A DNA stretch of 64,000 bases. Source: Streptantibioticus cattleyicolor NRRL 8057 = DSM 46488 (GTDB lineage Bacteria; Actinomycetota; Actinomycetes; Streptomycetales; Streptomycetaceae). The position numbers and the translations under genes were made by a program. The stretch covers positions 3,038,001-3,102,000 of the forward strand of contig NC_017586.1 of the NCBI RefSeq assembly GCF_000240165.1, read 5' to 3'. This document shows, one piece after another, positions 25,339 through 39,683 of this stretch. Under the pieces are notes generated by a model that ran no database searches, was not told where the DNA came from, and was given only the letters and a program-made list of their open reading frames with translations. Every line of letters begins with the position of its first letter. Within the stretch, counting starts at the first letter, position 1.

Positions 25339-25794
25339 CGTAACCCTGCCCTTGGCCCATTCACATCAGTCGCTTGCACGCCTGGTTGCGCTGACGATTG
25401 CCATCGCCGCTCTCGTCTCGTTCCGGTCTGGCCCCATGGCACAGGTATCCGGCGGGCCGCCGAGGCGCGGGTCTAGAACACAGCCCGAACGCGCTCTGTA
25501 CTTCCGAGCGATGGCCGGGTCGCGCGAGTAGCTGAAGCGGACGCGCAGCCAGCCTCGGGGCGCCTGCACCATGTCGCTCGCAAGCTGCAAGCACAACGGC
25601 TGCTCCTGGCTGCGGACATACGGAGGTCCTGTTCCTCCGTGCCAGTACCATTAGCGGCGGGTGGGGGGAGCCCTGCGTGACCGGCCTGGCAGGCGTGTTC
25701 CAGTCGCGGTCTCTGTCCGCCTGGTGCCTCTGGCTCTCCGGGACAGCTGTGCACCGACCGAGGGTCCCGGGGAGAAGTGGGACTGGGACCACAC
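25339..25794. other. 456-bp divergent intergenic region upstream of the defence operon
   Basis: No supported gene. It separates the reverse hypothetical gene from the start of the MutL-like gene and should contain promoters for both. Several short open frames cross it but lack a ribosome site and codon bias. I see no clear hairpin or repeat. Confidence 0.5.
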
Positions 25795-27270
25795 ATGACG
25801 TACGACATCGCAGCTCCCGAGCCCGCCGGGATGGTCGCCTCGCTGAGCTCGCTGGGCTACTCGTTGCCGGCAGCGATTGCCGATCTCGTCGACAACAGCA
25901 TCTCCGCGAAGGCACAGAACATCGACGTCGAGTTCGCCTGGGCCGGAAGCGACTCCTGGATCGCGGTCGTGGACGATGGCGACGGCATGAGCCAGGAGGA
26001 ACTCGTCACGGCCATGACCGTGGCGGCGCGAGGACCGGCAACGCCTCGCTCGCCCACTGATCTGGGGCGGTTCGGGGTCGGTCTGAAGTCCGCGTCGTTC
26101 TCCCAGGCGCGACAGCTCACCGTGGCGACAGCCTGCGACGGCCAGTGGCACACGCGCACGTGGGACCTCGACGTGGTCGAGAAGTACGGCGAGTGGCGGT
26201 TGCTCCACGGGGCCGACGACGACACCGCCGCCATTCTCCAGAGAGTCCGGCCTTGCGGCGGCCATGGCACGGTGGTGCTGTGGCGTCGGCTCAACGGCTA
26301 TCACACCACCGCTGTCACCGAGGACGACGAGCGCACGCAGAAGCAGTTCTACGCCGAGGCGACACGCACCGAGGCGCATCTCGGCATGGTCTTCGCACGG
26401 TTCCTCGTGGGAACCCGGCGACGCGCTCTAAGGGTTTCAGGAACCGCCGTACAGCCCTGGGACCCCTTCATGACTGCTCATCCCTCGGTCCAGCGGCTGC
26501 CTGCCGAGGAACTTCCCCTGGGTAACGGATCGGTGAGGGTCGAAGCGTTCGTCCTCCCGAGCGCCCACCGCCTGACTCCTGATGAGTTCAGCCATGCGGC
26601 AGGACCGCAGGGATGGCTTGATCAACAGGGCTTCTACGTGTACCGGCGCAACCGTCTGATTCTTGCGGGGGACTGGTTGGGGCAGCGCGGGATGCGTCGC
26701 GAGGAGAAGTACAACCTCGCTCGCATCTCTGTCGACATCCCGGCTGGATCAGACGCCGAGTGGGGAGTAGACGTGCGAAAGTCCAGCGTCGTCCCGCCTG
26801 TCAGTCTACGACCCCACCTTCATCGCATCGCACGTCAGGCCCGCACGAGGGCCGCAGAGGTGCTGCGACACCGCGGCCAGGTCGCCGCACGTACACACGG
26901 CGATCCCCTGGTGTACGTCTGGAACGTACGTCGTGCCGACGGCCGGCTCACCTGCCGGATCAACCGCAGTCATCCACTGGTCCAGGCCACGCTGAGGCAG
27001 GGAGGCGCGAACCCCGCTGACGTCCGTGCTCTGATCCGTCTCCTGGAGGAGACGGTACCCGTCGCCACACTCCGTGTGATGCACGAGACCGACACCAGCG
27101 ACGATCCCGATCCCTTCGGCGGGGCGGGTCCCGCTGACGAGACTGCGACCGAGGTCGCACAGCGCATCTACGAGTCCCTTGTCTCAGGTGGCCGTTCGCC
27201 TGCTGCAGCGCGCGAACGGCTGCGCACCATGTCTCCCTTCGACCAGCTACAGGGGTTCTGGAGTACCTGA
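25795..27270 (+). CDS. MutL-like GHKL ATPase of an MZA-type defence operon
   Basis: 491 residues from ATG 25795 (GTG 25777 in frame). The N-terminal GHKL ATPase has the N-box IADLVDNSIS at about 27-36, G1 VVDDGDGMS at about 58-66 and G2 LGRFGVGLKSASF at about 90-102. It lacks MutL's C-terminal endonuclease motif; instead there is a YVYRRNRLILAG segment seen in MORC/MutL-like defence ATPases. The next genes are Z1, PD-(D/E)XK and AIPR, the published order of MZA (MutL, Z1, DUF, AIPR) anti-phage systems. It probably senses or clamps DNA in an ATP-dependent way. Confidence 0.85.
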   Translation: MTYDIAAPEPAGMVASLSSLGYSLPAAIADLVDNSISAKAQNIDVEFAWAGSDSWIAVVDDGDGMSQEELVTAMTVAARGPATPRSPTDLGRFGVGLKSASFSQARQLTVATACDGQWHTRTWDLDVVEKYGEWRLLHGADDDTAAILQRVRPCGGHGTVVLWRRLNGYHTTAVTEDDERTQKQFYAEATRTEAHLGMVFARFLVGTRRRALRVSGTAVQPWDPFMTAHPSVQRLPAEELPLGNGSVRVEAFVLPSAHRLTPDEFSHAAGPQGWLDQQGFYVYRRNRLILAGDWLGQRGMRREEKYNLARISVDIPAGSDAEWGVDVRKSSVVPPVSLRPHLHRIARQARTRAAEVLRHRGQVAARTHGDPLVYVWNVRRADGRLTCRINRSHPLVQATLRQGGANPADVRALIRLLEETVPVATLRVMHETDTSDDPDPFGGAGPADETATEVAQRIYESLVSGGRSPAAARERLRTMSPFDQLQGFWST

Positions 27271-27333: not shown

Positions 27334-30105
27334 GTGAGCTCCACCCCCGACGAACCCCTCGCAAAGGCGAAGCGGTTGGTACGCAGCTTCCTGCCACAGG
27401 ACCGGCAGCCCAGCCCCGACGAGGTGCAGATCGCGGTCAACGCGATCTTCGGCATGCTGGCCGCACAGGGGGAAACTCTGGACCGGGACCAGCTGGCCAA
27501 GGAGATCGAGGCCATGATCACGGTGTTCCAGGAGCGTTCCCTGGGACTCGTTGACCCCAAGGGGCACGAGCCCTGGCTCCCTGAGGCGAAGAACAACCGT
27601 TCCTGGGATTTCTGGGAGCGATACCGCTGGTTCCTCGAGGATGTCGAGGACCTGCCGCTTTCGGTCGTGCGACGGCTGGACCAGACCTCGGACGAGGTCT
27701 TGAGCCAACTGGAGGATCCGCGGCGGCCTGGCCCCTGGCGCCGCAAGGGGCTCGTGATCGGCCAAGTGCAGTCAGGCAAGACCGGACAGTACATCGGACT
27801 CGCTTCCAAGGCGGTTGACGCGGGCTACAAGCTCGTCGTTGTTCTCGCCGGCATCCACAACGACCTCCGGAGCCAGACGCAACTGCGCATAGACGAGGGC
27901 CTGCTGGGCTTCGACACCCAGCACCAGATGCGCTCCAACGAGAACGGGGACTCCCGCACCATCGGTGCCGGACTCATGCCGCTGCAGGGCAAGAAGCTCG
28001 ACATCGCGTCTCCGACGAACAGCTCCGAGAAGGGGGACTTCGGACGCCAGGCCGCAGCCACGATCAACTTCCCGCTCGGCAGCTTTCCTGTCGTGCTCGT
28101 CGTCAAGAAGCACTGGAAGATTCTCGAGTACCTGCGCAGGTGGGTGACCGACGTGCAGGGCACCGAGGGCGAGAACGGCCGCAAGATCGTGCGCGACGTT
28201 CCGCTCCTGGTCATCGACGACGAGGCCGACAACGCGTCGATCAACACGGTCCGCGATCCTGACGACGACCCCACCAGGACAAACAGGGCGATCCGAGACC
28301 TCATCAACAGTTTCGACAGGGCGGCGTACGTCGGGTACACGGCCACTCCGTTCGCCAACATCTACATCGACCCCGACGCAGACCACGACGAGGTGGGCGG
28401 GGATCTCTTCCCGGAGAGCTTCATCCGCAGCCTCCCCTCGCCCTCGAACTATCTCGGCCCGGAGCGCGTGTTCGGACTGCAGGTGGATGACGAGGATGAG
28501 GAGGACGTGCATCCGTTGCCGCTGGTGCGTCACGTGAACGACTCCGACAGCTGGTTGCCGAGCCGGCACAAGGCCGGCGACAGGCCCCGTGGGGATCTCC
28601 CTCGGTCTCTACGTGAGGCCGTTGCGTCGTTCGTGCTCTCGTGCGCGGCTCGCCGGGCCAGGGGCCAGGTAAGGGTGCACAACTCCATGTTGGTGCACGT
28701 GACCCGGTTCACGGCTGTGCAGAGCCTTGTCCGCGAACAGGTGGAGGACCACCTGCACTTCCTTGTGGACTCGCTCCGTGACCGGTACGGGAAAGGGCCG
28801 AAACTTCTTGCGGAGTTCCAGGAACTCTGGGAGCGCGACTTCGTTCCCACCACCGCGCACTTCCCGGCTGACGAGGCTGAACCGCTGACCTGGGAGCAGG
28901 TGTCGACGGAGCTTCTGGACGCGATCAGGAAGATCCAGGTCAAGGCGGTGAACGGCACTTCCCGGGACGCTCTCGACTACTACGACAACCGCAAGGACGG
29001 CCTCTCTGTCATCGCCATCGGCGGCCAGAAGCTGTCCCGGGGCCTCACGCTTTCAGGGCTCACGGTCAGTTACTACCTGCGCTGGGCCAACACGTACGAC
29101 ACGCTGCTCCAGATGGGCAGGTGGTTCGGGTACCGACCCGGGTACGAGGACCTGTGCAGGCTGTACACCACGCCTGCCGTCGAGGACGCCTACGTGGAGG
29201 TCACGGCTGCGACCGACGAACTACGCCGCGAGGTCGAGGAGATGGCCACGCTCGGTCTTACACCCCGGCAGTTCGGTCTGAAGGTCCGCTCGTCGTCGCT
29301 GGGGCTCATGGTCACTGCGGCGAACAAGATGAGGCAGAGTGAGAGGATCCTGCTCAGTTACTCCGGCGAGGGGCCGGAGACGGTGATCTTCAACCTTGCC
29401 GACCGAGCTGTGAAGCGTAACTTCAAGTCGCTCGAGGACCTGGTGCGGCACCTCGACGGCATCACGGAACCCGAAACAGCGGTCAGCGGCGGCACGGTGA
29501 TGTGGCGGGGGGTACCGCCGGAAGTGGTCTCCGAGTTCGTGGCCTCCTACGAGACCGACCGCATGGCCCAGAGGGTCCGTCCCCGACTCATCGCAAAGTA
29601 CATCGAACAGTGTGCCAAGGTGGGTGAGCTGGGCAACTGGACCGTCTGCCTGGTAGGCAAGTCGGCCGCCACTCACGTGGACGTCGCCGGGCACTCGGTC
29701 GGACCAGTTACGCGTGCCCCGCTCAACCCGGAGTTCAGAACAGAGGGGCGGTACACGATCCGTCGTGTCCTCAGCCCGCGCGACGAGGGCCTCGATCTCG
29801 ACGAAGCACAGCCTGAAGCGGCACGGGAGGCCGCTGGGAAAGCAGCGAAGCAGAAGGAGAAGACCTCGGTCCCGAAGCACCCGTCGGGTCCGTACCTCCG
29901 TCGTCAGCGACGTCCCGACCAAGCCCTGCTACTCATCTATCCCATCGAAGTACCAGGACCCGAGGACGACTCCCCGGAGCTGCCGCTGGTGGGCTTCCAG
30001 GTGAGCTTTCCCTACTCCCGTAACCAGTCGAAGACCGAGTACGTGGCGAACAGCATCTACCTGCAGGAGGACATCTACGCCCTCGACGAGGAGGACGACG
30101 CGTGA
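27334..30105 (+). CDS. Z1-domain helicase-like ATPase
   Basis: 923 residues from GTG 27334, with TTGGAGG six bases upstream. The P-loop GQVQSGKT lies at about 143-150 and the DE-box LLVIDDEADNAS at about 292-303. A later SRGLTLSGLTVSYYLR and GRWFGYRPGYEDLCRLY block forms the second RecA-like half of superfamily 2 enzymes. This is the full-length Z1 protein (PF10593 type). It should supply ATP-driven DNA or RNA translocation to the system. GTGA at 30102-30105 couples it to the nuclease-like gene. Confidence 0.9.
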   Translation: MSSTPDEPLAKAKRLVRSFLPQDRQPSPDEVQIAVNAIFGMLAAQGETLDRDQLAKEIEAMITVFQERSLGLVDPKGHEPWLPEAKNNRSWDFWERYRWFLEDVEDLPLSVVRRLDQTSDEVLSQLEDPRRPGPWRRKGLVIGQVQSGKTGQYIGLASKAVDAGYKLVVVLAGIHNDLRSQTQLRIDEGLLGFDTQHQMRSNENGDSRTIGAGLMPLQGKKLDIASPTNSSEKGDFGRQAAATINFPLGSFPVVLVVKKHWKILEYLRRWVTDVQGTEGENGRKIVRDVPLLVIDDEADNASINTVRDPDDDPTRTNRAIRDLINSFDRAAYVGYTATPFANIYIDPDADHDEVGGDLFPESFIRSLPSPSNYLGPERVFGLQVDDEDEEDVHPLPLVRHVNDSDSWLPSRHKAGDRPRGDLPRSLREAVASFVLSCAARRARGQVRVHNSMLVHVTRFTAVQSLVREQVEDHLHFLVDSLRDRYGKGPKLLAEFQELWERDFVPTTAHFPADEAEPLTWEQVSTELLDAIRKIQVKAVNGTSRDALDYYDNRKDGLSVIAIGGQKLSRGLTLSGLTVSYYLRWANTYDTLLQMGRWFGYRPGYEDLCRLYTTPAVEDAYVEVTAATDELRREVEEMATLGLTPRQFGLKVRSSSLGLMVTAANKMRQSERILLSYSGEGPETVIFNLADRAVKRNFKSLEDLVRHLDGITEPETAVSGGTVMWRGVPPEVVSEFVASYETDRMAQRVRPRLIAKYIEQCAKVGELGNWTVCLVGKSAATHVDVAGHSVGPVTRAPLNPEFRTEGRYTIRRVLSPRDEGLDLDEAQPEAAREAAGKAAKQKEKTSVPKHPSGPYLRRQRRPDQALLLIYPIEVPGPEDDSPELPLVGFQVSFPYSRNQSKTEYVANSIYLQEDIYALDEEDDA

Positions 30106-31112
30106 CGGTCACCGAGGAGGACTGGCACGAGCTTGAGCGCCCTCACGACTCGCCAGGACGCTCCAGCCGTCGGTTGCATCCGGACTCCCCGCTGGACGTG
30201 TTCCTCTCCGTCGCCCATCCGGGGGGACAGCGCATGCTGGTACTCAGGGCCGACGCCCGCTCGGCAGACCACATCGTGCGTTCGGTTGGGCGACTGCCCC
30301 GGGCGGCCGGCATCGAGATGCAGCTGAGTGCGGTGTCCCGTCTCGAGTACGAACTCCAGTTGGTCCTCACGGCGAACGACCTCCGGGAAGTGTTCAACCC
30401 ACTCGTGACCGACGTTGCCGACACCGCGCGTTCAGCGCCGGCCGCTGCCGACGCTCTGACAGCCGCCGTGAGCAGGTTCGAGCGCTGGCAGGATCTCCTG
30501 CGCACGGTTGGCACGGACGGGCTGGGAGCGGAGGCGCGGAGGGGACTCTACGGGGAACTTCTGGTGCTTGGTAACCACCTCCTGAGCACCCTGTCCGAGA
30601 TCGAGGCTGTGGAGTCCTGGACGGGACCGACAGGCGCCAACCAGGACTTCCAGCTCCCCGGAGTCGCGATCGAGGTCAAGGCAAGTGCCGCGAAACACCC
30701 CCGCAGCGTCCGCATAGCGAGTGAGCGACAGCTGGACGACACCGGTGTCCCGCACCTGCTGCTGTGCATGATGGTGCTCGACGAACGACGGGGTGGGTCC
30801 GGCGAGAGCCTGAACCGTCGTGTGGAGCGCGTCCGGGGGCACCTTGCCAGCGCTGCTGCCAGGGCCCGATTCGACGGCCTGCTGATCCAGGCAGGTTACC
30901 TGCCCGGGCATCACGATCTCTATGAAGAACCTCGATACACCGTTCGTGACCTGCGCTTCTGGCACGTTCGGGATGGCTTTCCCAGGCTTGTCGAGTCGGA
31001 CCTTCCCGAGGGCGTCAGCGACTGCACCTACCACGTGACCGTCTCGGGGTTGGACAGCTACCTGGCGTCAGTCGACGATGTGAGCATGTTGATCGGGGGA
31101 GCCCATGAGTGA
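30102..31112 (+). CDS. PD-(D/E)XK motif protein (DUF4420-like) of the MZA operon
   Basis: 336 residues. GLYGELLVL near 148 supplies the first acidic helix, and QDFQLPGVAIEVKAS near 181-195 supplies the D-x(n)-E-x-K core of a PD-(D/E)XK nuclease, matching PF14390-type proteins found next to Z1 genes. It is the likely DNA-cutting effector of the operon. It overlaps Z1 by four bases and AIPR by eight, so the three should be made in fixed proportion. Confidence 0.85.
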   Translation: MTVTEEDWHELERPHDSPGRSSRRLHPDSPLDVFLSVAHPGGQRMLVLRADARSADHIVRSVGRLPRAAGIEMQLSAVSRLEYELQLVLTANDLREVFNPLVTDVADTARSAPAAADALTAAVSRFERWQDLLRTVGTDGLGAEARRGLYGELLVLGNHLLSTLSEIEAVESWTGPTGANQDFQLPGVAIEVKASAAKHPRSVRIASERQLDDTGVPHLLLCMMVLDERRGGSGESLNRRVERVRGHLASAAARARFDGLLIQAGYLPGHHDLYEEPRYTVRDLRFWHVRDGFPRLVESDLPEGVSDCTYHVTVSGLDSYLASVDDVSMLIGGAHE

Positions 31113-33114
31113 GCAGGACCTGGCCGAGTACTCCCGGAGCCTCGTCGCTGACGTTCAGGCGACCGCGGACGCCGAGGGAACGACAACTCCGGAAGCGTTC
31201 ACACACAGGGTCCTGTTCGACCTGGAGAAGGCCGGCGTCGTCTCCAACACCTTCAGCGCGTACCACAAGGCCCACGGTCACGAGATCCATGCGTACGGCA
31301 TCGGAGAGGCGGGTGAGTCCTTGGACCTCTTCCTCACCGACTTCCACCTGGCCCCGCTGGAGACGAAACTCACCAAGGCCCAGACCGAAACCTCGTTCAA
31401 ACGGCTGTTGACCTTCGCACGTCGTTGCCAGGAGGGCCTGCAGCAACATATTGACGAGTCCTTCGACGTGTACGACATGTGCGAGGCGGTCGAGAAGGCC
31501 CTGACCGAGGTGCAGAGGATCAGGCTCTTCCTCCTCAGCAACCGCGTCGCCACGACCGTGGAGGTCCCGCCCACCCACTTCGACGGCCTCCCGGTCGTCC
31601 ACGAGGTGTGGGACCTGGCGCGGCTGCACCGTCACGAGACGTCGGGATCGCTCAGCGAGCCCATCGTGGTTCCCTTCACGCCTCCGCTGCCCTGCGTTTC
31701 CGCTCCGAGTTCGGAGCGGGACCATTCCGTCGTGCTCGCTGTGATACCCGGAGAGTTGCTGGCGGAGCTGTACGCGGAGCACGGGACACGGCTTCTCGAA
31801 CTCAATGTGCGTTCGTTCCTGCAGGCCCGTGGTTCCGTGAACCGAGGCATCCGGGAGACCCTGTTGCACGCGCCCGGCCGCTTCCTGGCCTACAACAACG
31901 GGATCACGGCAACGGCCTCCCAGGTCGACTTCGTGACAGGCCCGGACGGAGAGCCGACCCACATCTCCCGCGTACACGGCCTCCAGATCGTCAACGGCGG
32001 GCAGACCACGGCGTCACTCCACTATGCCCGGTCACGGGACAAGGCCGACTTGTCCCAGGTCCGGGTCCAGATGAAGTTGACGGAGGTCTCGCCCGAGCGT
32101 CTCACCGAGATTGTCCCCAAGATCTCGGAGTACTCGAACACGCAGAACCGGGTGACCCAGGTCGACTTCAGCTCGAACCACGAGTATCACGTGGCGATCC
32201 AGCGGATCACCCGTTCCCTCTGGGCTCCCGCAGCCGACGGCAGTGGTCAGGAGACCCACTGGTTCTACGAGCGGGCACGCGGCCAGTACACGGACGAGCT
32301 TGCCAAAGCCCGTACGCCTGCCCGGCAACGCCAGTTCAAGAGGATCAACCCGACGAAGAAGAGGTACACCAAGGCCGATCTGGCGAAGTTCGTCCACTCG
32401 TGGATCCAGCTGCCCCACCTGGTGAGTCGGGGTGCACAGAAGAACTTTGTCGAGTTCATGCTGCGTATCGACGAGGCGCCACCACGTGTCGACATCCAGT
32501 ACTGCCAGCGGGTGATCGCAATGGCGATCCTGTTCAAGGCCGTGGACCAGGTTGCCGCCGGCCATGGAGCGGGCAGTCACAAGAGCCTTGTGACGACGTA
32601 CACGATGGCGAGACTGTCCCTGGCCACCGAGCAGCGGATCGACCTTGACCGGATCTGGCGTGAGCAGGGAATCTCCGCCGCCCTGGAAGCCGCGGTGGAC
32701 GATCTGTGCCCCCGCGTCATGGAGGCGGTGACGAACCCGCTGGAGGGCAACCACGTGGGCGAGTGGGCCAAGAAAGTGGGGTGTTGGGACGCCGTTTCAC
32801 GAGTGCGCTGGACGGTCCCCGACGCCCTGGCGGCCGAACTCCTGGACCTGCCCCTGGACGAAGCAGCACTGGCCGGCGGCAGCCCGGACGCCGAGGGGGC
32901 GGTCGAGGAACTCCTGATTGTGCCAACCGGCGAGTGGTACGCGCTGGAGCGGTGGGCCAAGGAGACGCACAACCTCGAACCCTGGCAGAGGCAGCTGGCC
33001 CAGTCCGTCGGGAAACGGATGGAGAACGGCCAAGAGGTGCCCGAAACACAAGCACTCCAGGCCCTTCACGCGCGTAGCGAGGCTCTGCGCCTGGGGTTCA
33101 CTCCTGCTCAGTGA
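31105..33114 (+). CDS. AIPR-family protein (abortive infection phage resistance)
   Basis: 669 residues. FLAYNNGITATAS near 260-272 and QIVNGGQTTASLHYAR near 294-309 are the hallmark AIPR segments (PF10592). The N-terminal ~150 residues include a possible PD-(D/E)XK-like strand pattern (LDLFLTDFHLAPLETKLTKA). AIPR proteins occur in abortive-infection and restriction-linked loci. It completes the four-gene MZA set. The ATG at 31105 lies inside the previous gene. Confidence 0.88.
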   Translation: MSEQDLAEYSRSLVADVQATADAEGTTTPEAFTHRVLFDLEKAGVVSNTFSAYHKAHGHEIHAYGIGEAGESLDLFLTDFHLAPLETKLTKAQTETSFKRLLTFARRCQEGLQQHIDESFDVYDMCEAVEKALTEVQRIRLFLLSNRVATTVEVPPTHFDGLPVVHEVWDLARLHRHETSGSLSEPIVVPFTPPLPCVSAPSSERDHSVVLAVIPGELLAELYAEHGTRLLELNVRSFLQARGSVNRGIRETLLHAPGRFLAYNNGITATASQVDFVTGPDGEPTHISRVHGLQIVNGGQTTASLHYARSRDKADLSQVRVQMKLTEVSPERLTEIVPKISEYSNTQNRVTQVDFSSNHEYHVAIQRITRSLWAPAADGSGQETHWFYERARGQYTDELAKARTPARQRQFKRINPTKKRYTKADLAKFVHSWIQLPHLVSRGAQKNFVEFMLRIDEAPPRVDIQYCQRVIAMAILFKAVDQVAAGHGAGSHKSLVTTYTMARLSLATEQRIDLDRIWREQGISAALEAAVDDLCPRVMEAVTNPLEGNHVGEWAKKVGCWDAVSRVRWTVPDALAAELLDLPLDEAALAGGSPDAEGAVEELLIVPTGEWYALERWAKETHNLEPWQRQLAQSVGKRMENGQEVPETQALQALHARSEALRLGFTPAQ

Positions 33115-33142: not shown

Positions 33143-33331
33143 TCAGAGCATGCCCTTCTCGACCAGGTCCCTGACAGCGTCCTCGGCCCGCCTCAGGACA
33201 ATCCGTCCGTCACCGTCACTGAAGGCGACGAGATCGGAGCCCGGTGCGATGCCGGCCTCCGCCAGCAGGCCGAGCGGCAGCTCGATCCGACCCTGATCAT
33301 CGACATGGAGTTCGGCTGGTTCCCGGAGCAT
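33143..33331 (-). CDS. Small AbrB/SpoVT-like DNA-binding protein
   Basis: 62 residues from ATG 33331. The sequence fits an AbrB swapped-hairpin domain: V-D-x-Q-G-R-I-E-L-P near the start, then a GIAPGSDLVAF turn and DGRIVLRR. Such proteins act as transcription factors or antitoxins. It is reverse-strand, within the defence island, and its start is only 55 bp from the Vsr start on the other strand, so it may repress that shared promoter or its own. No toxin gene is adjacent. Confidence 0.7.
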   Translation of the reverse strand: MLREPAELHVDDQGRIELPLGLLAEAGIAPGSDLVAFSDGDGRIVLRRAEDAVRDLVEKGML

Positions 33332-33386
33332 GGGAAGAGTGTGGCACCCTCCGAGTCGAGGACGTCTACAGACTGGGAATGTGGTC

Positions 33387-33884
33387 ATGAATGGAGGAGG
33401 GCTAACGCCGGACCGTGGGTGGGTCGCCACTCCGGAGGGTGAGCACCTTCGCGGCCGGCGCGTGAGGGACACCAGGCCGGAGGTGGCCCTCAGGAAGGCG
33501 GTGCACCGGCTGGGCCTCAGGTTCCGCCTTCACCAGAGGGTGGCTCCCAGGTGCACGGCCGACTTCGTGCTTCCCAGATACCACGTGGCCGTCTTTGTTG
33601 ACGGCTGCTTCTGGCACGGCTGCCCGAAGCACGGCCCCAAGGTGTTCCGCGGACCGAACGCCGAGCGTTGGACGGACAAGATCGAGACCAACAGGGCCCG
33701 AGACAGACGCAACACGGAAGCAGCGGAGGCCGCCGGATGGACCGTGCTCCGGGTCTGGGAGTGCGAGGTCAAGGCCAGTCCAGCGGCGGCAGCACTCATG
33801 GTTGCCGAGCGGTGTTCGGCTCCTACTCGCGTGACTGGGCAGGAACAGGCTGCCGACCGTGCGTCCCACTCAGAGCATCCGTGA
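33387..33884 (+). CDS. vsr: Vsr-family DNA mismatch endonuclease
   Basis: 165 residues from ATG 33387. The Vsr fold is clear: MRDT-like RRVRDTRPEVALRKAVHRLG, the metal-binding D in TADFVLPRYHVAVFVDGCFWHGC near 65-87, and the W-x-V-x-R-V-W-E-C strand near the C-terminus (WTVLRVWECEV). Vsr nicks next to T:G mismatches arising from 5-methylcytosine deamination, or acts as a restriction nuclease with its methylase. Its 3' end overlaps the convergent methyltransferase gene by 62 bp. Confidence 0.88.
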   Translation: MNGGGLTPDRGWVATPEGEHLRGRRVRDTRPEVALRKAVHRLGLRFRLHQRVAPRCTADFVLPRYHVAVFVDGCFWHGCPKHGPKVFRGPNAERWTDKIETNRARDRRNTEAAEAAGWTVLRVWECEVKASPAAAALMVAERCSAPTRVTGQEQAADRASHSEHP

Positions 33885-35805
33885 CCAGGTCACCCGCAGC
33901 ACTTTCCCTGCCCGCGCAGTAACTACTGAGAGGACACTGATCACAGAGAGGATTCTTCGCGTTGCACAGGGTGCTTCCGATGAGTCGTAGCGCAGCCATG
34001 CGCAGGGGGGCCTTTTCTCCTGCACCGACGAGCTTCACCAAGTGCACCCGGCCGTCACTGAGCCGGTTGGTGCGGTCAGAGTCGCTGTCGTGCAGCCGGG
34101 CAGCGACGCGCAGCGCACTCTGTCCCACCCACAGAAGGTCGTCATCGATCAGCAGCCGGTAGAGCGCGCCCTCGGCTGGTTTCATCCCCAGGCGCTTGGG
34201 CAGCTCCTTCTGCTTCTCCTCGTCCTCGGACCAGACACTTGACTTGCCGGCCACGGCGGTCAGCCTGTCGAGGCGCGCCCGAACGGCTGCCGTGGGGGCT
34301 GATTCAAGGAGAGTGCGCAGAGCGGACTTGGTCAGAGTCGCGTGCTCCCGGATCGTCTCGAGCATCTCGTGCATCTGACCGGACTGCACCCGGGTTCCCG
34401 CCAACACCGCCACGACCGCCGCGTGCACTGACGACAGCTTGGGCAACTGGTACCAGTTCTCCCCGTTGCGCTGCCGTTCCGCCCAGGCAGTCAGGTCCTC
34501 GCGGGCCGTGCGCCAGCGGGGCTGGAGTCCGCCTTCCCCGGCCTGGCACCCCTCGACAGGCAACAGCACTTCCGCGGCGGCCTTACCCAGGAGGGGTGGC
34601 ACCGCGTTGCCGATCTGCCGGAAGGCGTCACTACGCGTCCCAGCGAACCTGAACCGGTCCGGGAAGGTCTGTACCCGTGCCGCCTCCCGAACGGTCAGGG
34701 TGCGGTTCTGGTCCGGATGGATGTACCAGTAGCCGTCCTTGGCGATGTGGGCGGTGATCGACCTGCTCAGGTCGTCCCAGTCAAGCTTCTTGTACTTGTC
34801 GGTGAAGTGCTCGGCGCTGTACCGCTGGAGCTCCGGGTCGATGTCCGAGTACAGGGTGTCGGAGTCCATGCTGTCGAAGATCACCCAGTCGTCCGGCCTG
34901 ACCCTCCGGGTCATGTGGTCGAAGACGACCTCACGCTTCGCGCGCTTGCGCATCTCCCTGGCAAAGTCGGACAGATCTTCGGAGGGGGTGCCGTAGGCCA
35001 TCTCACGCTCGCCGACACGCTCCGTGGGCACCACGGTGAGAGGAGGGAGGTCACCAATAGCATGGCGCAGGGTGGTGCGTTCGTCCTCGGCGACCTCCTG
35101 CTGCCACTCGAACCTCTCGATGTCGTTCCTGGCCAGAAGGATGAGCCGCTTCCGGTGCTGGGGTACTCCATAGCGCCATGCGTCGACAAGGCGTACCTGG
35201 GTTGCGTAGCCGAGCTCCTCGAGCTGCTGCTCGATCACGCGGACCACGAAGAAGTCGTCGCCGAGGCCCATGTCCGGGACGTTCTCCATGAGGACGGCGC
35301 GCGGCCTGATCCTCTTTATGACGTCCAGGTACGCGCTCCACAGCTCTTTACGGAGGTCGTGAGGGTCGCGGCCATGGTGCTCTACGAGGTGGCGGATCTT
35401 GCTCCGCCCGGCCCTGCTGAACGGCTGGCACGGCGGCCCCCCCGCCACCAGATCGATCTTCCCCTTCGCCGGCTCCAGCAGCTCCTCGAGCCTGTCACGC
35501 TCGGCTGGGTTCCCCAGGTCCATGTGCAGACTCATGCCGGGGAAGTTGGCCGCATGGGTCTCAAGGGCACGCTCGTCGAAGTCGACAGCGGCTGCAGTGG
35601 TCCAGCCAGCTCGCTGAAGCCCAAGACTCAGACCGCCTGCTCCGGAGAAGAGGTCCACGGCGAGGCGACGCCCCTTGCCGTACCCTTCGAGCCACTTTGC
35701 GAACCGCTCGGGCCTGCAGCTGTGCCGGTGCCGTGGGAGCTTGAGATAGTCGCTCCGTTCCAGGGGTACGCCATAGTGCGACTCCTGCACAGCACGCACC
35801 TCCAC
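33823..35805 (-). CDS. DNA cytosine-5 methyltransferase fused to an endonuclease-III-like Fe-S domain
   Basis: 660 residues from GTG 35805. The methyltransferase part has motif I DLFSGAGGLSLGL near 52, motif IV GGPPCQPFSRAG near 127, motif VI MENVPDMG near 174 and motif X QIGNAVPPLLG near 398. The C-terminal ~190 residues look like an HhH-GPD glycosylase and end in an EndoIII-type cluster motif C-x6-C-x2-C-x5-C (Cys614, 621, 624, 630). In EndoIII the catalytic Asp lies in VDTH; the aligned segment here reads WVGQSALRVA, so that Asp seems absent. The protein may modify DNA and scan for damage or mismatches. Confidence 0.88.
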   Translation of the reverse strand: MEVRAVQESHYGVPLERSDYLKLPRHRHSCRPERFAKWLEGYGKGRRLAVDLFSGAGGLSLGLQRAGWTTAAAVDFDERALETHAANFPGMSLHMDLGNPAERDRLEELLEPAKGKIDLVAGGPPCQPFSRAGRSKIRHLVEHHGRDPHDLRKELWSAYLDVIKRIRPRAVLMENVPDMGLGDDFFVVRVIEQQLEELGYATQVRLVDAWRYGVPQHRKRLILLARNDIERFEWQQEVAEDERTTLRHAIGDLPPLTVVPTERVGEREMAYGTPSEDLSDFAREMRKRAKREVVFDHMTRRVRPDDWVIFDSMDSDTLYSDIDPELQRYSAEHFTDKYKKLDWDDLSRSITAHIAKDGYWYIHPDQNRTLTVREAARVQTFPDRFRFAGTRSDAFRQIGNAVPPLLGKAAAEVLLPVEGCQAGEGGLQPRWRTAREDLTAWAERQRNGENWYQLPKLSSVHAAVVAVLAGTRVQSGQMHEMLETIREHATLTKSALRTLLESAPTAAVRARLDRLTAVAGKSSVWSEDEEKQKELPKRLGMKPAEGALYRLLIDDDLLWVGQSALRVAARLHDSDSDRTNRLSDGRVHLVKLVGAGEKAPLRMAALRLIGSTLCNAKNPLCDQCPLSSYCAGRESAAGDLVTDALSGTHGRQPVPAQSRE

Positions 35806-36210: not shown

Positions 36211-38451
36211 GTGGACTCCGAGAACGCGAAGGCGTATCTCCGGCCGCGGGCCAGGCTCATGAGCACGCTCGGCGAAGAACTGATCAGCAACGAACGCGTC
36301 GCCCTCACCGAGCTGGTGAAGAACGCCTACGACGCGGACGCCAGCCTCGTCCTGATCCGCTTCAACCCTCCCCTCGAAGAGGGTGAGGGCTCGATCGAGG
36401 TCTGGGACAACGGGCACGGCATGTCGCCGGCCACAGTGCGCGGCACGTGGATGGAAATCGCCACCCCGCACAGGCACCGGAACCCCCGCAGTGAGTCAGG
36501 TGGGCGTCGCGTGCTGGGCGCCAAGGGCATCGGCCGGTTCGCCTCGGCTCGACTTGGCCATACCGCCACAATCACGACTCGGCGGGTCGATGAGCAGGAG
36601 GTCACCCTTCGCATCGACTGGGGGGACTTCACGGATGGTGACGCGTACCTGGATGAGGTTCCGGTCTCCCTGTCCACGACCACTCCGAGCGTCTTCGTAG
36701 ACGGAGGCACAGCAGCGCAGACCTTTTCCGAGGTCCTCCGGGAATTTCAGTCAGCGCCCGCTACAGCCGTCGACACGGCGCATGGCACCGTGGTCCGACT
36801 CGAGAGGCTTCGCACGGCTTGGGGAACGAACGAGATCGAGGCCCTCAAGCGTTCCCTGTCCAGGCTCCTCCCCCCGCCGCCTCCCGCCGAGCTCTCTGTG
36901 CCGGACCAGCCTGAGTTCTCGATCTACATCGACACTCCGGAGGGGCCGCTCCGCCACCACAGCGGGTTCGTTTCTGCGAGTGAGACACTGGCCCATCCCC
37001 GCTATCGCCTCGTCGGCGCCGTGGATGCTGACGGAGACGCGAGCCTGGCCATTTACGCCGGCGACGAAGAACCGGTAGAGGTCGTCCAGGACAACCTCCG
37101 GAAGGACTCGAAGAGGCCCTCATGTGGCCCTCTGAAACTGGACTTCCGAGTCTGGGACCTTGAGTCGTCGGCCATCAAGCCGCTCCTGGCACTCGACACC
37201 AGCGCGAGGAACACCAACGACGTACGGGAACTCATCCGGAACAACAGCGGTGTGGCCCTGTACCGGGACGGGTTCCGTGTGCAGCCGTTCGGGGAACCCG
37301 GGTTCGACTGGCTTGGTTTCGACCAGCGACGCATCAACAACCCGACGCTGCGTCTCTCCAACCGGCAAGTGGCGGGATTCGTCTACATCTCGGCCGATGA
37401 CAACCCCGGCCTCATGGACCGCTCGCACCGCGAAGGACTGATCGACTCCCCGGAGTACGAGGAACTGAAGGCAGTCATACTCCAGGCGATTGCCAGGTTG
37501 GAGACGCAACGCTACCGGCTGCGTCGGGAACCCACTGCTCCGACGGACGCCCCGCTCCTTGCCGGGCCGTCCGAAGGCAGGGGCCACGGGCTCTTCCAGA
37601 ACTTCAACCTGGACCCGCTGCGACAGGTGGCTGCCGAGCGGCACCCAGACGACATCATCCTCAGCCGCGCCATCGAAGAGGCCACGGAGACGATCAACGA
37701 AGGCGTACGCAAGGTACAGGAGGTCATCGCCCAGTTTTCCCGCCTCGCGACGCTGGGAACCCTGGTCGATGTTGTCCTCCATGACGGACGTACCGCCCTT
37801 TCCCGCATCGGCGTGGGCCTTCGCCGCCTCGGCAAGATCACCACGAAGGTCGAGACACACGACGTGGAGTTGTCAGCTGCGCTGGGCAAGCTTCGCACGG
37901 ACTTCACCGCACAGGAGAGGGCTCTCGACCGGCTCTTCGCTCGCATCGAGCCACTCAGTGGACGGAAACGTGGACGGCCCCGCCGGCTCTCTCTGCACCA
38001 GAGCATTTCCGAAGCCGTTGACGTACTGGAGTCGGAGATCACCAAGCACGGTGTAGACGTGAAGATCGGCGGGGAGGACGTGATCGTCACTGCCGAGCCA
38101 GGTGACATCAGGACTCTCGTGGTCAACCTCGTGAGCAACGCCGTGTACTGGCTCTCCACCATGCCCAAGGGCACCCCACGCGAGATCCTGATCGAAACGG
38201 AGCGCAACCATGAGGGCGAACTGGACGTGGTTGACATCACGGTCAGTGACAACGGCCCTGGGGTGCGCGAGGAGATCAAGGATCTGATCTTCGAGACCTA
38301 CTTCAGCGACAAGCCTGATGGCGTCGGCCTCGGCCTCAGCATCGCAGGCAGCGTCGTGAAGGACTTCTACGACGGCGACCTGGGGCTGGTGAGCCCCGGC
38401 ACCCTCTCGGGTGCGAGTTTCCGGGCACGACTGCGAAGGAGAGTTGGGTGA
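36211..38451 (+). CDS. Hsp90/MORC-like ATPase fused to a histidine kinase
   Basis: 746 residues from GTG 36211, with two GHKL ATPase modules. The N-terminal one has LTELVKNAYDADAS (about 33-46), VWDNGHGMS (about 66-74) and VLGAKGIGRFASARLG (about 101-116), as in Hsp90/MORC-like proteins. The C-terminal one is a histidine kinase: LVDVVLHDGRTALSRIG with His524 as the likely phospho-acceptor, N-box VVNLVSNAVYWL near 635-646, G1 VSDNGPGV near 679 and G2 DGVGLGLSIAG near 702. No membrane segment is seen, so the input is cytoplasmic. It overlaps the receiver gene by four bases (GTGA). The fusion suggests a sensor using the MORC-like clamp as input. Confidence 0.85.
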   Translation: MDSENAKAYLRPRARLMSTLGEELISNERVALTELVKNAYDADASLVLIRFNPPLEEGEGSIEVWDNGHGMSPATVRGTWMEIATPHRHRNPRSESGGRRVLGAKGIGRFASARLGHTATITTRRVDEQEVTLRIDWGDFTDGDAYLDEVPVSLSTTTPSVFVDGGTAAQTFSEVLREFQSAPATAVDTAHGTVVRLERLRTAWGTNEIEALKRSLSRLLPPPPPAELSVPDQPEFSIYIDTPEGPLRHHSGFVSASETLAHPRYRLVGAVDADGDASLAIYAGDEEPVEVVQDNLRKDSKRPSCGPLKLDFRVWDLESSAIKPLLALDTSARNTNDVRELIRNNSGVALYRDGFRVQPFGEPGFDWLGFDQRRINNPTLRLSNRQVAGFVYISADDNPGLMDRSHREGLIDSPEYEELKAVILQAIARLETQRYRLRREPTAPTDAPLLAGPSEGRGHGLFQNFNLDPLRQVAAERHPDDIILSRAIEEATETINEGVRKVQEVIAQFSRLATLGTLVDVVLHDGRTALSRIGVGLRRLGKITTKVETHDVELSAALGKLRTDFTAQERALDRLFARIEPLSGRKRGRPRRLSLHQSISEAVDVLESEITKHGVDVKIGGEDVIVTAEPGDIRTLVVNLVSNAVYWLSTMPKGTPREILIETERNHEGELDVVDITVSDNGPGVREEIKDLIFETYFSDKPDGVGLGLSIAGSVVKDFYDGDLGLVSPGTLSGASFRARLRRRVG

Positions 38452-39683
38452 CGTCGACCGACGTTGCGTATCGGGTGCTCATAGTCGATGACGACGCCCA
38501 GATGATCGCGGACCTTCGCGAAGTGCTGTCCGAGGAGCTCACAGACCTCGGGGAGATCCACTTCGAGTCCGAGCAGGACTTCTCCACAGCCGAGCAGCGG
38601 TTGATCGACGAGGACTTCGACCTGGTCATCCTCGACGTCCGCGACGCCGCCGATGGCAGGCCCTCCGCCGCCATAGAAGGACGGGGACACGAACTGTACG
38701 ACGCCATCGCCGGCGCGCGGTGGCTGCCCGTGGTCTTCTTCACAGCTGTCCCTCAACAGGTGCGTGACCTGGAGAAGCCCCCACTCATTCGTGTGGTGAC
38801 CAAGAACGCCTGGGACGAGGTCGCTCCCGCAGTCCGGGACGGGTTGCTCTCGGGAGTGTCGGAGTTGAGACGCCGTATCTCCGGTCTCGTCGAACGCAAG
38901 GTCCGCGTTTTCCTGCGTGACGTCGTGGCCCCGCACTGGCACGAGATGGCGGGCGCTGATCCCCACGAGATCACCCCGATCATCGTCAACCGCCTCGCGG
39001 CCGAGCTCCGGGAGAACGGCCCCAGCGAACTGGGTTACGCCGGGGACGGCGAGGCGGTCGCCACTGCTGGTCAACCCTCCGCTGCGCGGGTCTACTTGAA
39101 GCCGTTCGTGACCCATCACCTCACCGCCACGGACCTCGTGGTCAGCCCCGAGGGCGATTGGTGGATCGTCCTCACCCCTGCTTGCGACCTGTATGAGGAC
39201 CACCCGGACGCCAACGTGGCGAGACCTCGTAAGGCCAAGGCACAGTACGTTCGCCTGGCCAAGGCTGACCGCATCTTCACCGAGGACGGCGAGGAGTCGG
39301 AGTCGCCAGCGATCGCCACATGGCTGGCCAGCTCGAAGAGCAACAGCCACAAGGACCAGGCCAAACAGGTCTTCGGGGACAAGCAGAACCGGTACCGCGC
39401 TCTTCCTGGCTACCTCGACATCCCCGACCTCCTGGTCGACTTCGAGAACGTGGTATCGGTCCCGCTCGCCGAGGCACGAACCTGGCGACGTGTCGCAACC
39501 CTCGACAGCCCGTTCTCGGAGGCGATGCTCATCGCCTACAGCCGCTCGGTGGGGCGTATCGGAACCCCGGACCTCAGCTTCGAGGACGTGAAAGTGCGGT
39601 TGGAACTCGAGAAGCCGAAGGCCAGGCACGTGCCGACGCAGGCTTCAACGCCATCAGCGAACGGCGAGATTGTGAAGGACTGA
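38448..39683 (+). CDS. Receiver-domain protein with large unknown C-terminal region
   Basis: 411 residues. The N-terminal ~130 residues form a response-regulator receiver: VDDDAQM (acidic residues 13-15), phospho-acceptor DLVILDVRD (Asp about 63), VVFFTAVP (Thr switch) and RVVTKNAW (Lys about 119). The remaining ~280 residues match no output domain I know and contain no helix-turn-helix. The segment WWIVLTPACDLYEDHPDANV may be a catalytic or binding site. It is the cognate partner of the fused kinase. The lack of a DNA-binding domain suggests an effector rather than a transcription factor (inference). Confidence 0.8.
   Translation: MTSTDVAYRVLIVDDDAQMIADLREVLSEELTDLGEIHFESEQDFSTAEQRLIDEDFDLVILDVRDAADGRPSAAIEGRGHELYDAIAGARWLPVVFFTAVPQQVRDLEKPPLIRVVTKNAWDEVAPAVRDGLLSGVSELRRRISGLVERKVRVFLRDVVAPHWHEMAGADPHEITPIIVNRLAAELRENGPSELGYAGDGEAVATAGQPSAARVYLKPFVTHHLTATDLVVSPEGDWWIVLTPACDLYEDHPDANVARPRKAKAQYVRLAKADRIFTEDGEESESPAIATWLASSKSNSHKDQAKQVFGDKQNRYRALPGYLDIPDLLVDFENVVSVPLAEARTWRRVATLDSPFSEAMLIAYSRSVGRIGTPDLSFEDVKVRLELEKPKARHVPTQASTPSANGEIVKD

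Follow-up and report, generated by a model that had tools for sequence, protein, structure and literature searches.

5-Methylcytosine (5mC) deaminates to thymine, which makes C5 methylation of cytosine mutagenic, and the bacterial remedy is Vsr or, for certain lineages, a T:G glycosylase. The gene of Mig.MthI, the T/G-mismatch glycosylase of Methanobacterium thermoautotrophicum, is said to have been found by Horst and Fritz in 1996 beside a C5 methylase on a plasmid. According to PMC2714593, Mig.MthI counters 5mC deamination by acting on T/G and has Y126 at a catalytic column. Here, we analysed a stretch of 64,000 nucleotides of the genome of Streptantibioticus cattleyicolor NRRL 8057 = DSM 46488 (NC_017586.1, positions 3,038,001 to 3,102,000; hereafter, the window), which encodes a cytosine-5 DNA methyltransferase whose C-terminal domain is related to this kind of glycosylase, retains the four cysteines of the iron-sulfur (Fe-S) cluster loop and has lost the catalytic residues.

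The gene neighbourhood of this methylase has already been described. The paraMORC/MORC restriction-modification neighbourhoods (Iyer, Abhiman and Aravind, 2008; PMC2292703) include a GHKL ATPase, a distinct superfamily II (SFII) helicase, a nuclease of the restriction-endonuclease (RE) fold, a cytosine methylase, Vsr and AIPR, and a type II relative of the Mza system combines Z1, a DUF protein, a cytosine methylase and AIPR (PMC9523054). The words glycosylase, helix-hairpin-helix and cysteine have 0 occurrences each in the main text of PMC2292703, and the part of the text covered does not mention a dead glycosylase domain. In the literature covered, which included few subscription journals, no paper was found that describes the fusion of a C5 methylase with a dead MutY/Mig domain, and the libraries that we searched do not name this fused domain.

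Domain layout of the methylase

The methylase gene (33823..35805, minus strand) encodes, from a GTG start, a protein of 660 residues, which was compared with its relatives in a family alignment of 23 sequences. The C5-methyltransferase catalytic domain (residues 45-415; 34561..35673, minus strand) contains the PCQ nucleophile within PPCQ (C126), ENV (174-176), a QxRxR motif (QHRKR, 216-220) and the C-terminal GNAVPP (399-404), as is typical of C5-cytosine methyltransferases. Residues 126, 174-176, 216-220 and 399-404 are invariant in all 23 rows, and Pfam DNA_methylase covers residues 50-413 (E=8e-58).

The C-terminal domain (residues 427-636; 33898..34527, minus strand) is matched to MutY 5kn8 by hmmsearch and to MutY 1muy by VIA-align. 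Close to its end, the loop of residues 614-630 (33916..33966, minus strand) presents C614, C621, C624 and C630 in the spacing C-x6-C-x2-C-x5-C. It is a 4Fe-4S loop on the basis of its ligands, and the cluster itself is predicted. Pfam EndIII_4Fe-2S matches residues 616-630 (E=0.0014), with a score just under the 20.5-bit cut-off for the whole protein (19.3 bits) and just above it when the last 241 residues are searched alone (20.9 bits), and NCBIfam mutY reaches E=8e-5 over residues 588-635, with a score that falls far short of its own cut-off. Two other segments distinguish the domain: VGQS (residues 560-563; 34117..34128, minus strand), which replaces the catalytic V-D-x-N/H segment in the alignment of 71 fused domains described below, and LRVAAR...NRLSDGR (residues 565-586; 34048..34113, minus strand), whose conservation emerges from the alignment of fused and standalone domains. 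With PHROGs, the whole protein matched methylase families and two families of unknown function, and the C-terminal domain alone gave no match. The predicted model of the full-length protein had a predicted local distance difference test (pLDDT) score of 74.9 and a predicted template modeling (pTM) score of 0.76, and its structure matches were exclusively C5 methylases, with DNMT1 first, among the 50 matches listed.

Loss of the active site in the fused family

Eighty-five distinct domains were aligned with MAFFT, comprising 71 fused domains, 10 standalone relatives and 4 ordinary MutY/EndoIII enzymes. The count of 71 leaves out 15 identical domains, L134 (no motif match), L149 (early frame end), L145, L146, L150 and L151 (repeats of others) and the viral repeats L157 and L158. 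The 4 MutY/EndoIII reference rows had been chosen with a pattern containing Asp, and their Asp is therefore no independent control. The independent control consisted of the ordinary glycosylase frames of loci L074-L097, which were found by similarity with no Asp demanded.

The four loop cysteines are kept in all 71 distinct fused domains, with a spacing that is off by one in some of them. By contrast with the ligands, the catalytic site is lost. MAFFT and two profile-profile alignments all place V560-G561-Q562-S563 of the window methylase on the V-D-x-N/H segment of MutY, EndoIII and Mig-type enzymes, so that G561 occupies the catalytic-Asp column. Over the 71 fused domains this column contains G (46), N (7), S (7), T (5), A (2), R (2), V (1) and K (1), and never Asp or Glu (0/71). 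The standalone domains have Asp there in 10 cases out of 10, as do the similarity-picked control frames in 24 out of 24; among viral copies picked by similarity, Asp is present in both standalones and absent from both fused domains. A preliminary description of the window, made from the sequence alone, had reported a methylase with the four cluster cysteines in exactly this spacing and VGQS in place of the VDTH-equivalent segment, with the catalytic Asp seemingly missing. This observation is confirmed and is now widened to a family.

More than the Asp has been lost. The column of its Lys/Ser/Tyr partner is A in 54 of the 71 fused domains, S in 9 and G in 4, so that 67 have one of these three, and each of the other four has a residue of its own, in one case D; the Ser found in 9 is the residue of MutY. 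In all 10 aligned standalones, nine of which are methylase-paired, the residue is Tyr, as in Mig.MthI (Y126). Of the 71 fused domains, 1 retains the second hairpin Gly and 10 the pocket Glu. The window methylase has A544 and K542 where the partner and the hairpin Gly are expected, and does not show the residue set of an active glycosylase. R566 is present in 71/71 fused and 10/10 standalone domains and is common to intact glycosylases, while N580, G585 and R586, each found in 69/71 fused domains, are not conserved in the standalones. As far as the alignment tells, the catalytic site of the fused family drifts freely, and the Fe-S ligands and the new LRVAAR...NRL-S/T-D/E-GR segment do not. In the methylase of locus L133 (5985-7649), the hairpin half of the C-terminal domain is seemingly gone, and the Fe-S half with its four cysteines remains.

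Faulty assembly or reading was rejected as the reason why Asp is absent, since the near-identical loci L033 and L034 agree in these residues and the whole family is without Asp; an accident of the window lineage was ruled out by the 71 distinct fused domains. A fused domain with Asp, which would represent an active intermediate, was found neither in the viral loci (best 80 of 197), nor in 394 genomes of the class, nor in 396 genomes of the phylum (where eight loci were read as frames). Since Asp, the Lys/Ser/Tyr partner, the hairpin Gly and, mostly, the pocket Glu are gone, the prediction that the fused domain is not an active glycosylase is well supported by sequence.

Ancestry of the C-terminal domain

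When a profile of window-type domains was searched with hmmsearch against solved structures, the best non-artefact match was MutY 5kn8 (E=9e-5, over positions 6-206 of 210), and Mig.MthI was found at E=0.0025. The top matches of this profile were TAL-effector repeats (E down to 6e-12), which were put aside as a repeat artefact because, in the alignments listed, single repeats score less than 9 bits each and the helical N-terminal half alone is matched, and because such repeats are absent from the results of the profile of diverged members. The latter, built from four diverged fused domains, gave Mig.MthI (1kea) first (E=2e-14), MutY second (1.9e-11) and EndoIII third (best 3.8e-10). Profile-profile comparison of the diverged fused domains gave E=3e-19 with the standalones, 4e-15 with three MutY and 2e-6 with one EndoIII.

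The AlphaFold model of the C-terminal domain alone (mean pLDDT 80.5, pTM 0.59) matched MutY first in Foldseek (E from 9.5e-4, template modeling score 0.47). VIA-align gave Z 10.6 with human MutY, Z 10.2 with E. coli MutY 1muy (198 residues, root mean square deviation, rmsd, of 6.9), Z 8.2 with Mig 1kea and Z 7.6 with EndoIII 2abk. The homology extends across the whole two-half domain of the HhH-GPD (MutY/Mig/EndoIII) lineage. The domain most likely descends from HhH-GPD glycosylases of the MutY/Mig branch, as suggested by these comparisons. EndoIII is not favoured as the nearest relative, being outranked by MutY or Mig.MthI in the solved-structure searches and in VIA-align. The EndoIII-like character proposed in the preliminary description is thus retained as kinship within the HhH-GPD lineage, and is revised as to the nearest solved structures, which are those of Mig and MutY.

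Three results count against this assignment. Pfam HhH-GPD gives no match on the window methylase. Values of Z around 10 with an rmsd of 6-7 are moderate for an all-helical domain, and the sequence evidence is stronger. In the profile-profile comparison of the window-type set, which differs in depth from the diverged set, one EndoIII (E=1.3e-7) is slightly ahead of three MutY (6.1e-7) and of the standalones (6.6e-7). The window-type profile being slightly nearer to EndoIII, the descent from Mig/MutY rests on the diverged members, and MutY/Mig, as against EndoIII, are the probable rather than the certain nearest kin.

Intact relatives of the domain are found as separate genes near C5 methylases. 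A Halomicrobium protein encoded next to a C5 methylase was used as query against plasmids and gave 80 records, 40 of which were listed. Together with Halomicrobium, 8 of nine further plasmid records have a C5 methylase within 5 kb of the glycosylase gene, mostly next door, although these nine were picked by identity and for not being labelled plain mutY (Gloeothece excepted), and are not a random sample, which reduces their weight. The Gloeothece stretch has no C5 methylase near its standalone glycosylase. Pairing of this kind is also seen at two viral loci, L188 and L197, the second of which has a copy, L198. All 11 methylase-paired separate glycosylases, from nine plasmids and two viral loci that were re-found by similarity alone, keep the Asp. 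At E 0.001, no Vsr was found in these 11 records, nor in the Gloeothece record. The methylases paired with a separate glycosylase are as short as 319-405 residues.

Intact Mig-like glycosylase genes were located in L118 (11070-11705), L120 (4977-5675), L121-L125, L127, L128, L188 and L197, on archaeal, Thermus, Caldicellulosiruptor and alphaproteobacterial plasmids and on viral contigs. Most of the plasmid-borne ones are annotated as 'hypothetical protein', and that of Thermus (L120) is missing from the gene table.

Since Mig.MthI acts on T/G mismatches that derive from 5mC deamination, the profile results and the gene context make a T:G glycosylase the best-supported ancestor of the domain. 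In a tree of 24 methylases, the 13 fused ones form one group (1 change, 91% of bootstrap trees), and the 11 glycosylase-paired ones are diverse, with long branches. This topology fits one fusion event together with a repeated pairing of intact glycosylases with unrelated methylases.

Gene cluster and distribution of the fused domain

The methylase gene belongs to a cluster that includes a MutL/MORC-like GHKL ATPase (MzaB-like; 25777..27270, plus strand; Pfam HATPase_c_3 E=1e-29, NCBIfam MzaB E=7e-130, below cut-off) and, on the same strand, a Z1-domain protein (MzaC-like; 27334..30105; Pfam Z1 E=9e-83, PADLOC MzaC E=2e-188), a DUF4420 protein of the PD-(D/E)XK type (MzaD-like; 30102..31112; Pfam E=1.5e-97, PADLOC MzaD E=1.3e-20) and an AIPR protein (MzaE-like; 31105..33114; Pfam AIPR E=1.4e-97, PADLOC MzaE E=7e-89). 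All four core proteins miss the NCBIfam equivalog cut-offs (MzaB 434 of 850 bits, MzaC 732 of 1500, MzaD 148 of 420 and MzaE 396 of 1050), and the cluster is therefore a relative of Mza and not an equivalog. With its GHKL ATPase, Z1, DUF4420, AIPR, methylase and Vsr genes, it is Mza-like in composition and predicted to be anti-phage.

A Vsr-family endonuclease (33330..33884, plus strand; Pfam Vsr E=8e-17, 61.3 bits against a cut-off of 27) is convergent to the methylase gene and overlaps its end by 62 nucleotides, in agreement with the placement of the methylase opposite a Vsr gene in the preliminary description. A small AbrB/MazE-like open reading frame (33143..33472, minus strand; MazE_antitoxin E=6e-4, below cut-off), which overlaps the start of the Vsr gene and has a similar sequence in 29 of 34 loci, is possibly an operon regulator. 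On the other side of the methylase lie two accessory genes, encoding a protein with two GHKL regions recognised by Pfam (N-terminal HATPase_c_3 and C-terminal histidine-kinase type; 36211..38451, plus strand) and a response-regulator-like protein (38448..39683, plus strand; Pfam Response_reg E=0.0016, below cut-off). This two-gene cassette (36211-39683) is optional, being present in 10 of 34 loci, and is found again beside the worn-down methylase of L133, whose neighbours are Vsr and the cassette, with no Z1 match within 17.5 kb.

Homologues of MzaB, MzaC, MzaD and MzaE occur together in 33 of the 34 fused loci (L033-L066); L038 ends early. More widely, the fused domain is found in three contexts: with Z1, DUF4420 and AIPR; with Z1 and DUF4420 and no AIPR match; and with DUF6339 and a protein that is GHKL-like by eye. 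The last arrangement is that of a cyanobacterial plasmid cluster (L119, 256-5820) in which the GHKL-like protein, unmatched by Pfam, is accompanied by an unknown protein, by DUF6339 and by the fused methylase. The Halomicrobium plasmid L118 carries a related set, but with an unfused methylase and an intact glycosylase.

The genome that contains the window measures 8.1 Mb, and the closest named loci are from Streptomyces. With the last 241 residues as query, 28 of 391 genomes of the order gave a strong match (E <= 1e-12) and 17 further genomes matched weakly, mostly over the Fe-S loop. A scan of genome contigs gave 33 loci in Streptomyces, Kitasatospora, Nocardiopsis, Micromonospora, Nocardia and Actinacidiphila. 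More distant fused forms are present in other groups of the phylum and on a plasmid of Synechococcus elongatus. A diverged member used as query identified 22 places in 17 of 394 class genomes, that of the window included, and in 21 of these places the Fe-S loop follows downstream (20 by pattern, L141 by alignment); at the remaining place, L149, the reading frame stops early. We considered and rejected the idea that the window-type domain came from a plasmid or a phage: plasmids gave no match at E 1e-3, no phage record covered 80% of the whole methylase, and the window-type domain was seen on two viral contigs, one of which (L066) has flanking Mza genes.

Five actinobacterial genomes (G865, G1007, G1028, G1042 and G1056) have a pair of these methylase genes on opposite strands, separated by about 0.7-1.4 kb (L136-L140 and L152-L156; for example, G865:C1:894270-898826). 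The two belong to different subfamilies, and both carry the dead domain; perhaps each methylates one strand of an asymmetric site.

Possible roles of the fused domain

The explanation that we favour, and that we regard as probable, is that the methylase of this Mza-like cluster carries a fused, dead T:G glycosylase that has been kept as a non-catalytic module for binding DNA or protein. The C5 methylase would be the presumed self-marking methylase of a GHKL/Z1/DUF4420/AIPR anti-phage cluster, and its C-terminal third would derive from a T:G-mismatch glycosylase of the Mig/MutY kind. The separate glycosylases that lie near other C5 methylases presumably excise the thymine formed by 5mC deamination. 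In this methylase lineage the glycosylase was fused, apparently once, and now appears catalytically dead, with the 4Fe-4S ligands and a putative new surface (LRVAAR...NRL-S/T-D/E-GR) retained. With its chemistry apparently lost, the domain is left with a binding or structural function. A docking element without chemistry, for DNA and/or protein, is most likely because the domain persists in different gene contexts, with or without a nearby Vsr. Docking would help to position the methylase on DNA or would link it to the machinery of the GHKL ATPase, and T:G repair could fall to Vsr.

Several observations weigh against this explanation. The column of D556, in the IDDD segment, is D or E in 69 of 71 fused domains, and this acid could in principle act, though it is aligned five residues before the catalytic column. 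Vsr is in the fetched flank of 30/34 fused loci and in none of the 11 records with a paired intact glycosylase, but this support is limited too. In the sample of the order, Vsr is present in 28/28 genomes with a strong fused match as compared to 211/363 of the others (Fisher p=5e-7, with the kinship of genomes uncorrected), but this is partly trivial, Vsr being in the operon of most carriers. No Vsr was found in the cyanobacterial fused plasmid record L119 or in the viral fragment L067. An either-or relation between Vsr and glycosylase is suggestive, and is confounded by taxonomy and by plasmid versus chromosome, because the fused loci are mostly on actinobacterial chromosomes and the intact glycosylases on plasmids and viral contigs; on the latter side, the contrast covers archaeal, thermophile and other plasmid or viral records, not host chromosomes.

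An alternative is that the domain is intrinsic to the methylase, contributing to folding, dimerisation, processivity or target choice, and has nothing to do with repair or defence partners. The persistence of the domain in differing gene contexts and the Fe-S loop at 21 of the 22 subfamily places in the class genomes, the other being an early frame end, speak for this alternative. However, most of the C5-methylase matches listed for plasmids, phages and viral contigs end near query residue 410-430, and the short methylases that are paired with a glycosylase indicate that the extension is not generally needed. We consider an intrinsic role unlikely, although it is the least unlikely of the alternatives.

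The second alternative is that the domain reads T:G mismatches, or damage, without cutting them, and passes them to the Vsr nickase and the MutL-like GHKL ATPase. Its descent from the T/G-mismatch glycosylase branch, the MutL-like ATPase in the operon and the Vsr homologue within the fetched flank of 30 of the 34 fused loci, besides the contrast among genomes of the order, are in line with this idea. On the other hand, the domain has lost the hairpin Gly, the Tyr at the catalytic column and, for the most part, the pocket Glu; loci L056, L057, L058 and L064 keep the domain with no Vsr nearby (Vsr is elsewhere in the genome, as in G382 and G012), the L119 record has none at all, and L133 seems reduced to the C-terminal half. 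A mismatch reader is accordingly somewhat less likely than an intrinsic role. The preliminary description had proposed a reader in place of an active glycosylase, possibly guiding methylation or Vsr, and had suggested that methylase, domain and Vsr may form one pathway around 5mC deamination products. This interpretation is partly supported: the predicted inactivity holds, and the link to 5mC deamination gains indirect support from the intact relatives near C5 methylases, the Mig.MthI match and the frequency of nearby Vsr. The reading of mismatches is possible but not established, and it is weakened by the four loci with no nearby Vsr, by L119 and by the eroded pocket and hairpin. In its most specific form, which we regard as slightly more doubtful still, the dead glycosylase would be built into the methylase as a sensor of the mutagenic product of that same methylase; it would bind sites where 5mC has deaminated and hand them over to Vsr and the MutL-like ATPase encoded in the cluster. 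If true, this would be a self-repairing modification system in which a base-excision enzyme has turned into a recruiter of mismatch repair.

A role of the 4Fe-4S cluster in redox sensing or charge transfer, by which methylation or restriction would be switched under oxidative or nitrosative stress, is quite improbable. The four cysteines are indeed among the most strictly kept features of the family and survive in the worn-down L133, but their conservation would fit a purely structural cluster equally well, and the Pfam scan of the operon proteins showed no recognisable redox partner. Finally, glycosylase activity through another residue such as D556, in the IDDD segment that the preliminary description had named as a possible site of a substitute Asp, is highly improbable despite the frequent acid at that column, since the position is not the catalytic one in the alignment, the Lys/Ser/Tyr partner has disappeared along with the hairpin Gly, and the 10 standalones have no conserved acid there (one D and one E).

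Comparison with known systems

In the window cluster, both counters to 5mC deamination meet, the glycosylase fused and apparently dead and Vsr adjoining. The related loci form a natural series, from a separate intact glycosylase, through a fused dead domain with Vsr, to a nearly vanished domain of which the Fe-S loop alone is left, and this series lets the use of a non-catalytic Fe-S repair fold be probed. The analysis also adds to the methylase of Mza-like defence systems a domain that is unnamed in the libraries searched.

The likeness to the Mza system (MzaABCDE) lies in the homologues of MzaB, MzaC, MzaD and MzaE, which are found together in the window and on which the comparison is based; the window cluster differs in the additional methylase and Vsr and in scores below the equivalog cut-offs. 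With respect to MutY (5kn8, 1muy), the fused domain is without the catalytic Asp and Glu and is joined to a methylase. Full-length MutY has a C-terminal 8-oxoguanine domain, and this part is outside the match with the fused domain. Mig.MthI (PDB 1kea) has the same HhH-GPD fold and Fe-S loop as the fused domain, and is a free enzyme with Glu42, Tyr126 and the catalytic Asp; in the fused domain the Asp and the Tyr are gone, the Glu is mostly gone, and what remains is joined to the methylase.

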